Source: a bacterium (GTDB lineage: Bacteria; Electryoneota; RPQS01). From it: a stretch of 64,000 nt of DNA. Numbering within the stretch: the stretch's first letter is position 1; every line of letters starts with the position of its first letter. The notes under the pieces are model-generated. The model was not told where the DNA came from and did not search any database. It was given only the letters and a program-made list of their open reading frames with translations. Both the position numbers and the translations under genes were made by a program. Shown here one piece after another: positions 15,728 through 21,797 of the stretch. Where the stretch lies: contig JABWCQ010000002.1 in the NCBI GenBank assembly GCA_013360195.1, forward strand, positions 250,932 to 314,931, written 5' to 3'.

Positions 15728-16767
15728 TTTGCCCTCCTCGGCTTAAAGACAAATCCAGAGAATTGGCCGATACGCTCCCCAATCAGGAACTCAAGGACTA
15801 ATAGAAAGAGTGCAGGAATTGCAAAGTACGCGAATCGATCTTCGTAACCCGCGAACTGCATTTGCCCAAACTCGGTTTTCTCCATCTCGCTTAGGTTTTC
15901 CCAAATCAAGTCAAGTTCCTTGCCGCCGGGGTTAGCGCGCTGATACACTCCCCCCCCTGCCTCTGCTATTTCTGCCAAATGCGTTTCATTCAGTTGTGAT
16001 ACAATCACTTGCCCGTTCTGGTCTTTCTTGTATCCGGCGCGTCGACCGGCAGCGTCGATCAACGGTATCGGTGACCCATTTGGAGTGCCCATTCCTATCG
16101 TGTAGACTTTTATGCCGGAAGCGTTAGCTTCAGACGCGGCGTCTATTGCCGCATCTTCGTGATCTTCTCCGTCAGTGATGATAATTAGAACCTTGCTTTT
16201 CGACTCCGCGTGCTCGTCAAAAGTTTGGATCGCCATGCGAATTGCGTCAGCTACTGCCGTGCCCGGTTCAGGTACAATCGAAGGCGACAATACACGATTG
16301 AGCAGCTTTACAGCGCCATAGTCCGTGGTCAACGGGCAATGATAAACAGCGCTCCCTGCAAATGCTATCAAGCCAACACGATCCCCGTTGAGGCCATTCA
16401 CAAACTTCTGTATGGCAAACTTCGCGCTCTCAAGTCTAGAGGGTGAAAAATCCTCGCTCAACATGCTGAAAGAAAGGTCAACCGCAATCAATACGTCGAC
16501 TCCTTCGCGCTTTATCTCTTCGAGCCTTGTTCCTATCTGCGGCCGTGCCACGGCAATAATAAGAAGTGAGAAGGCGAGCAACCATATTGACATCCGCAAC
16601 CATTTTCTGGTTTCCGACTGTCCGTACGCGACTCGAATCAGATTCGGACTTGGAACAACTCTTTGCGCATCCTTCTGACTTCTTCGCAACAAAACAATCC
16701 AGCCAACCAAGACGACCGGTACAAGCAGGAGTAGCCAAAGAAGCTCAGGGGATTCAAACTTGATCAT
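15724..16767 (-). CDS. batB: BatB, von Willebrand factor A membrane protein
   Basis: 347 residues from ATG 16767, which overlaps the batA stop (ATGA) and follows the ribosome site AGGAAG; earlier in-frame starts would add about 24 residues lying in batA. Order: short periplasmic start, transmembrane helix (LLWLLLLVPVVLVGWIVLL), second helix near residue 60 (WLLAFSLLIIAVARPQIG), vWA domain with the metal-site motif DLSFS (near 95) and ITDGEDHED, and a C-terminal helix (FAYFAIPALFLLVLEFLIG). It pairs with BatA; metal-dependent adhesion is inferred from the intact DxSxS. Bat proteins are linked to stress or oxygen tolerance, but the molecular role is unresolved. Confidence 0.88.
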   Translation of the reverse strand: MIKFESPELLWLLLLVPVVLVGWIVLLRRSQKDAQRVVPSPNLIRVAYGQSETRKWLRMSIWLLAFSLLIIAVARPQIGTRLEEIKREGVDVLIAVDLSFSMLSEDFSPSRLESAKFAIQKFVNGLNGDRVGLIAFAGSAVYHCPLTTDYGAVKLLNRVLSPSIVPEPGTAVADAIRMAIQTFDEHAESKSKVLIIITDGEDHEDAAIDAASEANASGIKVYTIGMGTPNGSPIPLIDAAGRRAGYKKDQNGQVIVSQLNETHLAEIAEAGGGVYQRANPGGKELDLIWENLSEMEKTEFGQMQFAGYEDRFAYFAIPALFLLVLEFLIGERIGQFSGFVFKPRRAK

Positions 16768-17747
16768 GGCAGCTTCCTGTACCAAGTCAGACCAAGAATC
16801 GCCTCGAGCACAAGGCAAAAGAGAGCAGTTGATAGCCATGGACCGAACAACTCTGCGGTCTCTTTGTACTCCTCAACTTGAATCTTCGTTCGCTCGAGCC
16901 TGTCGATCTCGTCATAAATGTGAGATAGGGTCGCTTCGTCCGTCGCTCGGTAGTAACGCCCACCTGTCTCCGTGGCTATTTGCTTTAGCATTTCTTCGTC
17001 AATGTTCACTTGCACGTTTTGGTACCGTTTTCCGAACACGGTTTCGATCGGATATGGAGCCATTCCACGTGTGCCAACGCCAATTGAATAAATTCTTATG
17101 CCAAGGGCTTTTGCCGCTTGAGCGGCCGTCACAGGGTCTATTTCGCCACGGTTATTCTGCCCATCAGTGAGAAGTATGACTACCTTTGACTTCGCGTCCG
17201 ACTCTCTGAGACGATTAGCCGCAGTGGCCAGTGCCATTCCAATTGCCGTTCCATCTTCAACCATTCTCATTTGGATCTGGCTCAGAAGGCTCAATACAAC
17301 TTTATGGTCGGTTGTTAGAGGCACTTGCGTAAAACTCTGTGCTGCAAACGGTACGATTCCGATTCGGTCATGATCGCGTTTTTCGACGAATTGGGCGGCG
17401 ACGCGTTTGGCGGCTTCAAGGCGGTCAGGTTTCAGATCCTCCGCATCCATTGACGTTGAAATATCAATGCAAAGAACAATGTCTATACCTTCAATCGACC
17501 GTTTGCTTTCGCTGTCAAATTCTTGCGGTCTGGCAAGCGCAACTGTAAGTAAAATCAAGGCCAGGGACCGCAAAAGGAACGGAATGTGCCGGGTTTTGAC
17601 GCGAAAAGTCTTTGCAAGCGCTGAAACATGCACCAGAGTTGGAAATCTGAAATCTGTCAGCCTCTCTCTTTCACGAAAGAAGTTTATGTAGGCTAAAACT
17701 GGCAGAATTAGCAGCAACCAGAAGAATTCGGGATTCGCAAAGTTCAT
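16764..17747 (-). CDS. batA: BatA, von Willebrand factor A membrane protein
   Basis: 327 residues. N-terminal BatA segment (FANPEFFWLLLILPVLAYINFF), a second helix (IPFLLRSLALILLTVALARPQ), a vWA domain from about residue 90 with the metal-site motif DISTS, LTTDH (the conserved Thr) and LLTDGQNNRG, and a C-terminal helix (GPWLSTALFCLVLEAILGLTW). The ATG overlaps the preceding stop (ATGA). Both BatA and BatB keep all metal-site residues. The order moxR-DUF58-(this group)-batA-batB-batC-batD-batE is the canonical one in Bacteroidetes. Confidence 0.9.
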   Translation of the reverse strand: MNFANPEFFWLLLILPVLAYINFFRERERLTDFRFPTLVHVSALAKTFRVKTRHIPFLLRSLALILLTVALARPQEFDSESKRSIEGIDIVLCIDISTSMDAEDLKPDRLEAAKRVAAQFVEKRDHDRIGIVPFAAQSFTQVPLTTDHKVVLSLLSQIQMRMVEDGTAIGMALATAANRLRESDAKSKVVILLTDGQNNRGEIDPVTAAQAAKALGIRIYSIGVGTRGMAPYPIETVFGKRYQNVQVNIDEEMLKQIATETGGRYYRATDEATLSHIYDEIDRLERTKIQVEEYKETAELFGPWLSTALFCLVLEAILGLTWYRKLP

Positions 17748-18640
17748 TTCACTTCGTCATTCACGACTGATTCTGCGTGCGGTTTCGTCATCTCGATTAT
17801 TCTAAAGCCCAGATCCACAATCAGATTGGCAGAAGAAAGCGTAGGAACTTCCTTTGCGAACTTGACAAGATCTGCTTCCCGCAACGCCGGCAACAGTTCC
17901 TCGTAAAGGCAGCTAGGCAGGTCTTCACGCTTTAATTCATGTGCGAGTTCAAAGGTTGTCATTTCCAAAGCAGGGAAACTCCACGATCGCTCCATGTAGC
18001 GGCGGAGAATCTCCGAAAATTCGCTATAATGCTCTTTCAGCATGCCGCGTTCAGGATACTTCTTGTCCCGAAAGGCAATTAGCTCACGAATGGCGATCTC
18101 CGAGGGCGGCAATTCAAGAACTGAAGGCACTGCCGAAATTGCCTGCTTGTTTCGAAAGTACTTGCGCCAAACGTACAAGACACCAAGTGCCAGGATTCCG
18201 AATAGAGCCCAAGGCCAGAATTCTCGCACGACATCCGCAAATCGAAGCGGGTGGCTTTCAAAAGGCTTGATCGGCCGCGGAGTCAATGCCGTATCAGGCA
18301 GAATTGCCTCAACTATTATCTCACGATCTTCAGTTACGACGGAATCAATAACCTGCCCGTTCTTTAGCAAGAGTAGTGTGAATGGCGGAACTTGAATAAC
18401 ACCTGTGTCATATGACGCCGCGGAAAATTCAAACTTTCCATCGCGCTTAGACAATTGGTCATATGGCAAGATTCTAATTCTTGCATCAGCAGGTTCAATT
18501 ACGACCACACTATCAGCTTCTGGAACATTTACTGAATAGTGAAACGGATCACCTATTTTCAAAGACTGAAGCGCGAATCCAGTTTGTACGAGAAACGCGA
18601 AGATGAGGAAAGCAGCCAACAACTTCGAAATCTGACTCAC
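17744..18640 (-). CDS. BatI-like membrane protein of the Bat operon
   Basis: 298 residues between DUF58 and batA. It has a signal peptide (ISKLLAAFLIFAFLVQTGFA), a periplasmic beta-rich domain (about residues 25-140), one transmembrane helix near 155 (FWPWALFGILALGVLYVW) and a cytoplasmic helical domain (ELIAFRDKKYPERGMLKEHY). This layout and position match the poorly characterised BatI/DUF4381-like proteins that sit before batA; assignment is by position and topology rather than by a known motif. The GTG start overlaps the DUF58 stop (GTGA). Confidence 0.6.
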   Translation of the reverse strand: MSQISKLLAAFLIFAFLVQTGFALQSLKIGDPFHYSVNVPEADSVVVIEPADARIRILPYDQLSKRDGKFEFSAASYDTGVIQVPPFTLLLLKNGQVIDSVVTEDREIIVEAILPDTALTPRPIKPFESHPLRFADVVREFWPWALFGILALGVLYVWRKYFRNKQAISAVPSVLELPPSEIAIRELIAFRDKKYPERGMLKEHYSEFSEILRRYMERSWSFPALEMTTFELAHELKREDLPSCLYEELLPALREADLVKFAKEVPTLSSANLIVDLGFRIIEMTKPHAESVVNDEVK

Positions 18641-19515
18641 CTTCTCAGTTCCCGTCTCTTGAACATCGTGACAAGACTGCGAACATAATCTTCCGAAACA
18701 TCGAGCTGCATGTAATCAGCGCCGGATCTTTGAATATTCTGCTTGACAGAATCCTGCCATCGCATAAACTGACCAAAGAGTTCGCGCTTCCCTTGCTTCG
18801 ATGAACTGTCAACCCATAGCGGCTTTCCAGACTCTGCGTCATGCAGTTTCACCAAACCGAGGTCCGGCCATACATATTCACGCGGATCAATCAAGTGAAG
18901 TGCGAGGAGATCGTGCTTTCGCGCACAGATTCTCAAAGGTTTGGCGTACCCGTCGTCAATGAAATCAGAAATCAAGAAAACAATCGCTCTCTTTTTCGTG
19001 ATATTCAGCATGTACTCAAGCGCTTGAGACAGGCTTGTGCCGCATCTTTTTGGTTCAAAAGTTATCAATTCACGAAGAATCCGGAGTATATGCGATCTCC
19101 CTTTGCGCGGAGCGACAAATTTCTCGACGTGATCGGTAAAGAGCAGCAGTCCGACTTTGTCGTTATTCTTAATCGCGGAAAACGATAGCACAGCGGCAAG
19201 CTCGGCGGCGATTTCCATCTTAAGCGAACGTCCAGATCCGAACAGCGACGAGCTAGAAACATCACACATCAGCATGACGACCAGCTCCCTCTCTTCTTCG
19301 AACAGCTTTACATGCGGCTTTCCAGTTCGTGCAGAGACATTCCAGTCAATGGTTCGGACGTCATCACCGATTTGATACTCGCGAACTTCGGAGAAATTCA
19401 TACCCCGTCCTTTGAACACCGCATGGTACTCTCCAGACATGACTTCGTTTACCAGCCCGCGCGTCTTGATTTCAATTTGGCGGACCTTCTTGACTATTTC
19501 GCGTGTTTCAAGCAC
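18637..19515 (-). CDS. DUF58 (vWA-like) protein
   Basis: 292 residues. The DUF58 signature GDDVRTIDWNVSARTGKPHV lies near residues 50-70, preceded by RGMNFSEVREY. Downstream is a vWA-like fold with CDVSSSSLFGS (DxSxS near 88) and FLISDFIDDGY. DUF58 proteins travel with MoxR ATPases and the Bat vWA proteins; they are thought to be clients or partners of MoxR. It starts at GTG 19515, just past the moxR stop, with a weak ribosome site (GAGGT), and its stop overlaps the next start. Confidence 0.88.
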   Translation of the reverse strand: MLETREIVKKVRQIEIKTRGLVNEVMSGEYHAVFKGRGMNFSEVREYQIGDDVRTIDWNVSARTGKPHVKLFEEERELVVMLMCDVSSSSLFGSGRSLKMEIAAELAAVLSFSAIKNNDKVGLLLFTDHVEKFVAPRKGRSHILRILRELITFEPKRCGTSLSQALEYMLNITKKRAIVFLISDFIDDGYAKPLRICARKHDLLALHLIDPREYVWPDLGLVKLHDAESGKPLWVDSSSKQGKRELFGQFMRWQDSVKQNIQRSGADYMQLDVSEDYVRSLVTMFKRRELRR

Positions 19516-19517
19516 GT

Positions 19518-20507
19518 TTACGGTACCTCAACTGCACCGAAAATCTTCTCTACGATCGACTCGCTGTTAATTTCTTCAGCTTCCGCCTCATAAGTTACCC
19601 CGATGCGATGTCGCAGAACATCCATACCAATTGCACGAATATCTTCTGGTACGACGTATCCTCGGTGCCGCAAGAACGCGTGAGCACGTGCAGCCTTGAG
19701 AAGGAAAATCGAGGCTCGCGGCGAGGCGCCGTATTGAATCAGTGGTTTGAGTTCAGGGAGTTTGTGTTTGTCCGGATGGCGACTTGTAAACACTAGATCC
19801 AGCACATACTCTTCAATCTTCGGGTCGACGTAAATGGACTCCACCAAGGCCCGGATGCGGATCAGCTCGGCGGTAGTTGCCACTGGATTAATTGACGGCT
19901 GTGCACTTCTGGAAAAAGTCCGCATTATTCTCGCCTCTTCTTCCCTGCGAGGATAGTCCACAGTGACCTTCAGCATAAAACGATCAACCTGCGCCTCGGG
20001 CAAAGGGTATGTTCCCTCTTGCTCGATGGGGTTCTGAGTGGCGAGTACGAGAAAGGGCTGTGGCAGCGGGTAAGTGGAATCTCCAATCGTCACCTGCTGT
20101 TCCTGCATTGCCTCGAGCAAAGCGGATTGAACCTTCGCCGGCGCCCTGTTAATTTCGTCAGCAAGCACGAAATTTGTGAAAACGGGGCCCTTCTTCGTCG
20201 TAAAAGCTCCGTCCTTCTGGTTGTACACAAGCGTTCCAACAAGGTCGGCCGGCAATAAGTCAGGCGTAAATTGGATGCGTTGAAACTGTGCGTTGACAGT
20301 GGAGGAAAGAGTCTTGATCGTCAGAGTTTTGGCCAAGCCGGGGACTCCTTCGAGCAGCACATGCCCATTGCTGAAGAGTCCAATCAGGAGCCGCTCTAAC
20401 ATGTATTTCTGACCTACAACAACTTTCCCAGCTTCGGCGAGTATTCTGTCCGCAAGTTCAGCCTCCCGCTCTACTCTGAGCGTCAATTCTCGAATATCTG
20501 CATCCAT
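19518..20507 (-). CDS. MoxR-family AAA ATPase
   Basis: 329 residues, the usual MoxR size. Walker A GVPGLAKT (near residue 56), Walker B LADEINRAP followed by KVQSALLEAMQEQQVT, sensor 1 ATQNPIEQEGTYPLPEAQ and a C-terminal lid (ASPRASIFLLKAARAHAFLR). It is a chaperone-like ATPase expected to act on the DUF58/vWA proteins encoded downstream, possibly in metal insertion or complex assembly (family inference). It is first in the Bat operon; the upstream gap holds only a weak promoter candidate and one arm of an inverted repeat (20569-20578). Confidence 0.93.
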   Translation of the reverse strand: MDADIRELTLRVEREAELADRILAEAGKVVVGQKYMLERLLIGLFSNGHVLLEGVPGLAKTLTIKTLSSTVNAQFQRIQFTPDLLPADLVGTLVYNQKDGAFTTKKGPVFTNFVLADEINRAPAKVQSALLEAMQEQQVTIGDSTYPLPQPFLVLATQNPIEQEGTYPLPEAQVDRFMLKVTVDYPRREEEARIMRTFSRSAQPSINPVATTAELIRIRALVESIYVDPKIEEYVLDLVFTSRHPDKHKLPELKPLIQYGASPRASIFLLKAARAHAFLRHRGYVVPEDIRAIGMDVLRHRIGVTYEAEAEEINSESIVEKIFGAVEVP

Positions 20508-20568: not shown

Positions 20569-20637
20569 GTTGTGCCACTGTAGGTTCCCGTGTGCACAAA
20601 AAATTAGACCCCCTCTCGGGGATCTATGTGGCACAAC
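20569..20637. repeat. 10-bp perfect inverted repeat bracketing a terminator
   Basis: GTTGTGCCAC at 20569-20578 and its exact complement GTGGCACAAC at 20628-20637 are separated by 49 bases that contain the terminator hairpin at 20606-20625. The right arm belongs to the end of the lipoprotein transcript, the left arm to the moxR upstream region. They could form an outer stem or be two half-sites for one regulator. Confidence 0.55.
20596..20625 (-). terminator. rho-independent terminator after the TPR lipoprotein gene
   Basis: Leftward reading: an 8-bp stem (AGATCCCC with GGGGGTCT, one G-T pair), a GAGA tetraloop, then AATTTTTT. It separates the HIT/lipoprotein unit from moxR. Confidence 0.85.
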
Positions 20638-20653
20638 AAAACGCGATTTTCGC

Positions 20654-21067
20654 TCATCCTTGCTTTGCAGCAGAGTCAGGCGTGCCAATCAGCTTATTTA
20701 ACTCATCTATCTCATTTACGTCCTGACCAAGGTGGTCAAGCTCCCACTGGGCGTCCTTGACGAGACTGTCATCAGGATAGTTACGAATGAATGCCTGGTA
20801 AGCCGCCCGGGCCTTCTCTGTGTCTTTCAAGTGATTCGCATAAAGGTAACCCACCATAAATTGACACTTTGGAGCATAGTCCGACTTGGGATATCGCTGG
20901 ACCAGCTCTTCATACGCCTTGATTGCTGTTGGGAAGTCACTTTGACCTTGAGCAGTATTTGCTCTTTCAAAAAGTTCCTGATCTGTTGGTCCCGACTTGC
21001 ATCCCAAGCTGAGCAGGGTCAGCGCTAGCCCCGTGAGAATACTTCCACGAATCAAATATCGCAGCAT
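20654..21067 (-). CDS. TPR lipoprotein, BamD/YbgF-like
   Basis: 137 residues. Lipoprotein signal with lipobox LLSLGCKS (Cys near residue 23), then two to three TPR-like helical pairs (ELFERANTAQGQSDFPTAIK; YEELVQRYPKSDYAPKCQF; ARAAYQAFIRNYPDDSLVKD). The YPxS/D and A-x-Y-x-x-L patterns are those of BamD and the CpoB/YbgF TPR. It is too short for full BamD (about 240 residues), so it may be an accessory envelope lipoprotein. It follows the HIT gene by about 30 bases and ends in a strong terminator. Confidence 0.72.
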   Translation of the reverse strand: MLRYLIRGSILTGLALTLLSLGCKSGPTDQELFERANTAQGQSDFPTAIKAYEELVQRYPKSDYAPKCQFMVGYLYANHLKDTEKARAAYQAFIRNYPDDSLVKDAQWELDHLGQDVNEIDELNKLIGTPDSAAKQG

Positions 21068-21099: not shown

Positions 21100-21444
21100 T
21101 TAACCGGGCGGCCAGCGAAACTCCCGGCCTCCAAGGAGATGAACATGCAAATGGGGGACAGATTGACCTGCAGACTCACCGTTATTGATGACAATTCGAT
21201 ACCCGCTGCTCGAAATTCCTGTTTGTACTGCCAACTCCCTTGCCGCGCTGATAAGCTTCCCAAGCAGAACTGTATCCTCAGAAGATGAATCCGAAACACC
21301 GACAATGTTCTTCTTGGGTATAATTAGCAGATGAACAGGAGCCTGAGGATTAATGTCACGTATTGCAATTAAATCTTCGTTTTCCAATAACTTATCTGCC
21401 GGAATTTCACCCGCGATTATTCTGCCAAAAATGGTCTCTGGCAT
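21100..21444 (-). CDS. HIT (histidine triad) family protein, HINT branch
   Basis: 114 residues, a complete HINT-type protein. It starts TIFGRIIAGEIPADKLLE, has PQAPVHLLIIPKK mid-protein and the catalytic triad HLHVHLLGG near residue 100. HINT proteins hydrolyse nucleoside phosphoramidates and can remove adenylates from lysyl-tRNA synthetase adducts (family knowledge). Its ATG lies one base from the stop of the 32-residue protein upstream, and the two share a promoter at 21578-21606. Confidence 0.92.
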   Translation of the reverse strand: MPETIFGRIIAGEIPADKLLENEDLIAIRDINPQAPVHLLIIPKKNIVGVSDSSSEDTVLLGKLISAARELAVQTGISSSGYRIVINNGESAGQSVPHLHVHLLGGREFRWPPG

Positions 21445-21445
21445 A

Positions 21446-21544
21446 CTAACTCTTTGAAGCAGCTTTACTCGCCTTGATTTTTGCTTTCACGCGGCGCTTC
21501 TTGCTTCTGTGGTGCCGCTTCATGATAGTCTTGTTACGTCCCAT
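21446..21544 (-). CDS. 32-residue highly basic protein
   Basis: ATG at 21544, TAG at 21446-21448. The product begins MGRNKTIMKRHHRSKKRR and continues with VKAKIKAS repeats: about half the residues are Lys, Arg or His. It has one of the best ribosome sites in the window (GAGGTGAT, 2 bases before the ATG) and a good promoter 34 bases upstream, so it is almost surely expressed. The composition resembles tiny ribosome-associated proteins (bTHX/bS22 type), but I see no specific match, so the function is unknown. Its stop and the HIT start are one base apart. Confidence 0.75.
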   Translation of the reverse strand: MGRNKTIMKRHHRSKKRRVKAKIKASKAASKS

Positions 21545-21577
21545 GTATCACCTCGGTTGTTTTATAAGCATCGCTTC

Positions 21578-21606
21578 AATATAGGGCTAGTTGCGAAAAT
21601 ATTCAA
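21578..21606 (-). promoter_or_regulatory. promoter of the small basic protein/HIT/lipoprotein unit
   Basis: Leftward: -35 TTGAAT (21606-21601), 17-base spacer, -10 TATATT (21583-21578). The predicted start is about 27 bases before the ATG at 21544. Confidence 0.7.
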
Positions 21607-21647: not shown

Positions 21648-21676
21648 TTGACAAGTTCAGGGAAAATCATTAGATT
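21648..21676 (+). promoter_or_regulatory. promoter of tRNA-Asn
   Basis: -35 TTGACA (21648-21653), 17-base spacer, -10 TAGATT (21671-21676). The predicted start is only a few bases before the mature tRNA 5' end at 21687. Confidence 0.75.
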
Positions 21677-21686
21677 CGTGCTTCTT

Positions 21687-21758
21687 TCCGGAGTAGCTCA
21701 GCGGTAGAGCGGGTGGCTGTTAACCACTAGGTCGGGGGTTCGAATCCCTCCTCCGGAG
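21687..21758 (+). tRNA. tRNA-Asn (GTT anticodon)
   Basis: 72 bases with a full cloverleaf: acceptor TCCGGAG pairs with CTCCGGA, D arm GCTC/GAGC, anticodon arm GGTGG-CTGTTAA-CCACT (anticodon GTT), T arm GGGGG-TTCGAAT-CCCTC, discriminator G. The 3' CCA is not encoded in full (the bases after G are CC, then GA). A consensus promoter lies just upstream and a strong terminator just downstream, so it is a single-gene unit. Confidence 0.97.
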
Positions 21759-21761
21759 CCG

Positions 21762-21797
21762 ATGGCCGTCAAACTAAGTTTGACGGCCATTTTTTTG
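21762..21797 (+). terminator. rho-independent terminator after tRNA-Asn
   Basis: A near-perfect palindrome (arms ATGGCCGTCAAACT and its complement, 21762-21790) followed by seven or eight T, ending 39 bases past the tRNA. Confidence 0.93.

Follow-up and report, generated by a model that had tools for sequence, protein, structure and literature searches.

A short open frame, lying just ahead of a gene for a HIT-domain protein, raises the question of whether it encodes a functional protein and, if so, what this protein does. The window (the whole 64,000-nt stretch of DNA analysed here) belongs to a genome of 3.23 Mb in 46 contigs, and the frame occupies its positions 21446–21544 (−), stop codon included. 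The translation is MGRNKTIMKRHHRSKKRRVKAKIKASKAASKS, a 32-aa basic protein with a pI of about 12 in which Lys, Arg and His account for 16 of 32 residues (50%), as the sequence-only reading of this DNA had estimated. That reading had also described a strong ribosome site and a one-base link to the HIT gene, and both descriptions were correct: the Shine-Dalgarno sequence GAGGTGAT (21547–21554, (−)) is an 8-nt match located 2 nt before the ATG, and exactly one base separates the stop codon from the ATG of HIT.

We examined conservation with a profile (A1) built from nine small-protein members, the same nine genomes that it finds. It matched 9 of the 11 genomes of the window's taxonomic family and none of 28 genomes from elsewhere in the phylum. 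G004 and G006, the family genomes in which the small gene is missing, are 56% and 80% complete and likewise yielded no HIT. All nine members are 31–36 aa long, with 39–48% Lys plus Arg and a pI of 11.3–12.0. The N-terminal motif MGRxKPEMxRLHRRK is conserved, with M1, M8, H12, R13 and K15 invariant, while the Lys/Arg/Ala tail is variable. Identity at codon positions 1, 2 and 3 was 64%, 69% and 38%, respectively, and pooled values over codons 2–25 (36 pairs) were pS 0.82 and pN 0.33; as pS is close to saturation, the resulting pN/pS of 0.40 tells which way selection acts and is not a calibrated rate. With its order reversed and its composition unchanged, the profile (A5) gave zero matches in 386 genomes. 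The conserved frame, the synonymous excess and the empty reversed profile together indicate more than chance. The sequence-only reading, which proposed a real functional small protein, had named two findings that would speak against it, an unconserved frame in relatives and a lack of synonymous excess; neither was observed. That the small gene is protein-coding and under selection is thus strongly supported, and we regard 21446–21544 (−) as a genuine gene with near certainty.

Signals for expression were compared among the nine homologues. A Shine-Dalgarno match of at least 5 nt precedes the small gene in eight of them (only 4 nt in G001), a length attained by 4–17% of shuffles. The promoter-like site TTGAAT-17-TATATT (21578–21606, (−)), previously called consensus-like, is weak evidence if taken singly, since mononucleotide shuffling of the 180 nt upstream produces such a site in 17% of cases. 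The proposal gains from the comparison: 5 of 9 homologues (G000, G001, G003, G005 and G009) carry a similar site at a near-equal distance, beginning 62–73 nt before the start and with a 17-nt spacer in all five. The hexamers of the window genome align with those of G001, which is of the same genus (TTGAAT/TTGAAA and TATATT/TATATT), although the 100-nt upstream region as a whole is only 54% identical between these two genomes, which equals the maximum of 200 shuffles.

Downstream, the HIT gene (21100–21444, (−); 114 aa; PF01230, E 7.1e-27) is followed by a TPR lipoprotein-like gene (YfiO/TPR_6; 20654–21067, (−)) and by a terminator-like hairpin (20605–20626, (−)), a type of site of which 3 occur in 1.4 kb against 1.6 expected from shuffles. 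The simplest reading is that the small gene, HIT and the TPR gene form one transcription unit ending at this hairpin. The third gene follows HIT also in G001 and G005, and not in G003, G007, G008, G009 or G010. In 8 of 9 homologous loci the small gene and HIT stand next to each other or overlap, the small gene coming first: the small-gene stop and the HIT start share 4 nt (GTGA/ATGA) in G003, G005, G007, G008 and G010 and 1 nt in G009, while gaps of 1 nt and 5 nt separate them in G000 and G001, respectively. Genes outside this pair vary between genera, so that it is the pair itself that is kept, and translational coupling of the two genes is likely. In G002 the small gene and HIT are on separate contigs; a small gene kept away from HIT indicates that its product works in trans.

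Some further features of the neighbourhood were recorded. The HIT protein begins with MPETIFGR in G000 and MGQTVFGR in G001, at a place where the proteins of G003, G005 and G007–G010 read DC(I/L)FCK or EC(I/L)FCK; the window's genus has lost the two N-terminal cysteines. On the opposite side of the small gene, and divergent from it, lies tRNA-Asn (21687–21760); it comes with a promoter-like TTGACA-17-TAGATT of its own and a terminator-like hairpin of 14 pairs, the whole spanning 21648–21791 (+). Positions 16764–20507 (−) hold one cluster encoding a MoxR ATPase, a DUF58 protein and a third protein which, from its sequence, we take to be of von Willebrand type; this is a usual MoxR/Bat-like arrangement.

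The small protein matches no curated model. None of the Pfam and NCBIfam models reached its cut-off with the single sequence or with the nine members; in NCBIfam no member had a match at E ≤ 10, and in Pfam the nine members matched PF09720 and PF20607 only, both at E ≥ 0.12. The latter, DUF6800, is likewise a family of small basic proteins of unknown function, but it was reached at E 0.2 by one of nine members and stayed below cut-off in every family genome. DUF6800 and Unstab_antitox (one A1 member each), with E-values of 0.09–0.2 only, were attributed to composition. A genome of another phylum (G046, locus L073) does encode a DUF6800 protein over cut-off. A search of the PDB with the single sequence gave 0 matches and with the profile one 22-residue chain (E 1.9), and no ribosomal chain was matched by either; viral contigs gave no match. 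The predicted structure, from a 3-row alignment, is one helix over residues 2–31 (mean pLDDT 91), which for a Lys/Arg/Ala-rich peptide is not strong evidence, and Foldseek returned zero matches with this model at E ≤ 10, as expected for a lone helix.

The protein had been likened to the tiny ribosomal proteins bTHX and bS22, but the tests run gave no sign of kinship with either. bTHX is a tiny basic ribosomal protein, similar in that respect; the small proteins differ in that none of the nine members matched any NCBIfam model, nor any Pfam model above its cut-off. A closer parallel is offered by bS22/mS38 (AURKAIP1/COX24, PF08213) and by eL41, which corresponds to it in structure, both being about 25–35 aa long, very basic, helical and often missed by annotation. 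The bS22 site is the 16S pocket of h2/h27/h44/h45. bS22 differs by an N-terminal SVIKKRRK block, which the small protein lacks in the alignment. Across 61 genomes the COX24_C profile (PF08213) matched no small gene of the family at E ≤ 0.5, and its sole sub-threshold match in the family (G005:C318) lies at another place. As a positive control, the bS22 of G049 matched PDB bS22 chains with E from 8.9e-5 upward. No bS22 was found over cut-off among the searched genomes of the phylum, so its site may be open there. Profile comparison of the small protein with bS22/mS38 gave 9.5 (null mean 10.2), in a test that overlooks true distant members, since a known pair, bS22 from two actinobacteria (Msm+Cac) against algal mS38, also failed. 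An 8-mer of G008, RRKMRKHK, resembles a string that we take to occur in bS22/mS38; it has no profile support and was kept as a lead only. In two sources (PMC10085706, PMC10618245), C. acnes bS22 is described as a helical protein of 33 aa, bS22 and eL41 are given 55–65% positively charged residues, and each is portrayed as a short basic helix sitting in a small-subunit rRNA pocket. The latter source (PMC10618245) calls Borrelia bS22 and bL38 genetically non-annotated and considers that further bacteria are likely to yield bS22, whose short length hampers automated annotation.

A relation to bS21 (PF01165), another small basic ribosomal protein, was suggested by gene order and by shared RRKMRK strings. 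Of the 24 genomes from the phylum's other families that match HIT strongly, 10 have bS21 within 1 kb downstream of HIT and on its strand (G011, with a weak match, was left out; the loci include L022, L025, L028, L031, L032 and L039), which makes the HIT locus a translation neighbourhood there. However, each of the 11 family genomes carries its own bS21 match at another place, and the places listed do not include the small gene. The bS21 frame was also read in G002, G003, G007, G008, G009 and G010 and is apart from HIT in all six; in several of them it lies near a presumably CvpA-like gene, so named from its sequence. The PF01165 profile did not take in the small gene, and the comparison of A1 with the bS21 profile scored 11.7 (null mean 9.0), a level reached by 12/150 column permutations of bS21 and 22/150 of A1. 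A fragment of or replacement for bS21 was therefore ruled out, given a bS21 elsewhere in every family genome and a score at null level.

Outside the phylum, A1 matched a protein of G162 with E 3.5e-5 for one genome, which scales to an expectation of about 0.01 for all 386 genomes that were searched. This protein of 59 aa begins MGRHKNEIKKLHRKKIKKAKEKLKEFEAKK and has basic relatives of 59–75 aa in 21 of 35 genomes of G162's phylum (E ≤ 0.01). This long family (loci L086–L106) is solitary, with varied surroundings. It has no curated family match over cut-off and no PDB match better than E 0.2; eL29, with E-values within 0.09–0.2, was put down to composition. The N-terminal 25 residues of the long family resemble the small protein: over this stretch hhalign gave a probability of 92 and a score of 32.6, reached by 0/150 column permutations on either side (null maximum 18.1). 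When the three most similar long-family members were removed, the score was 27.4, exceeding all 60 permutations. The shared N-terminal motif thus goes beyond composition, with the reversed-profile control at 0/386. Taken alone, the divergent subgroups (L098–L104 and L105–L106) scored at null level against the small family. Nor did profile A3 recover the window's family, and the iterated profile A6 reached no third phylum in 386 genomes; G299 holds a diverged long form by A3, missed by A6. Two other A1 matches were discounted as chance, one in G040 (an open frame broken by stops) and one in G063 (18 residues). The long proteins differ in being twice as long and in a conserved C-terminal block, LNRLAKK..KRxKAGY, before which the window protein ends, and no neighbours common to both families were seen. 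From the N-terminal resemblance, common ancestry of the two families seems likely but unproven.

What would such a protein do? Our preferred reading, to which we give a probability of about one half, is that it would be a trans-acting RNA-binding protein, most likely associated with the ribosome through rRNA. The small gene, at the head of a transcription unit that it shares with HIT and, in the window, with the TPR lipoprotein gene, would yield a product of 31–36 aa, all-helical, highly basic and acting in trans. This product would most likely be a small ribosomal protein specific to the lineage and similar in kind to bS22/eL41, bound to rRNA with its single helix tucked in an RNA pocket, where the MGRxKPEMxRLHRRK motif would make specific contacts and the variable Lys/Arg/Ala tail would add charge. 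The data establish the gene, how it is conserved, the purifying selection on it, its place in an operon and the prediction of a helix; we infer both RNA binding and the ribosome as its target. A ribosome- or RNA-binding role, already put forward by the sequence-only reading, is plausible on the indirect evidence of the composition, the bS22/eL41-like helix model, the HIT neighbourhood (with bS21 in sister families) and the solitary G002 copy, but finds no counterpart among the ribosomal chains of the PDB. For the ribosome speak a distribution confined, within the phylum, to one family (9/11), the pN/pS, the invariant residues, the Lys plus Arg content and pI, the basic helix model, the published features of bS22 and eL41, the bS21 next to HIT in other families, the possibly open bS22 site and the G002 copy away from HIT. 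Against it stand the lack of PDB matches to ribosomal chains, absence in sister families, including two genomes from another family within the order, whose ribosomes presumably do without this protein, a location outside any ribosomal-protein operon, a null-level score against bS22, the empty Foldseek search and a basic helix that suits many nucleic-acid binders. In a global smORF catalogue (PMC11364881), 268 small families are ribosomal among 752 with Pfam annotation, of 2437 multi-phylum small families in all 8 habitat categories; these figures, like the parallels with bS22/eL41, serve as base rates and analogies.

Other explanations were weighed against these data. A non-ribosomal nucleic-acid binder, such as a small peptide that belongs to the nucleoid or serves as an RNA chaperone and coats DNA or RNA with its basic helix, would fit the charge, the single-helix model and a variable Ala/Lys/Arg tail resembling histone-tail sequences; yet no Pfam match over cut-off was obtained, and what is conserved is a specific N-terminal motif (invariant M8, H12, R13 and K15), more than charge, so that we hold this only tentatively. 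The usual company of HIT invites another explanation, in which stop/start coupling sets HIT translation, making the small frame a cis-acting leader, and the peptide itself may bind the HIT protein as a partner. Adjacency in 8 of 9 loci, with a 4-nt overlap in five, a 1-nt overlap in one and a gap of 1 or 5 nt in two, favours it, as does retention of the pair while genes beyond differ between genera. We consider it unlikely: selection acts on the amino-acid sequence, a pure leader is unable to account for the G002 small gene on another contig, and the HIT genes of the phylum's other families do without it. As for a chance open frame in the HIT leader, its shortness and basic low-complexity composition are the kind that might mislead, but frame, start, stop and protein are kept in nine genomes whose third positions are near-saturated, and the reversed profile is empty; the codon-position analysis refutes it, and we give it almost no credence.

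Taken together, these results describe a family of tiny basic proteins matching no curated model, and not a new kind of system. The RNA-binding reading has a stronger form, rather unlikely at present, in which the proteins would constitute a ribosomal protein family that has yet to be described: a single basic helix filling an rRNA pocket, perhaps that of bS22/eL41, which seems to be vacant in this phylum, and existing in two forms, short here and long in the second phylum. It took solved ribosome structures from new lineages for several ribosomal proteins, among them bS22, bL37 and bL38, to be recognised. Conserved in uncultured phyla and uncatalogued, this family of tiny basic proteins is a concrete candidate for the next ribosomal protein to be recognised late, and its MGRxKPEMxRLHRRK motif is precise enough for it to be recognised in density maps or proteomes.
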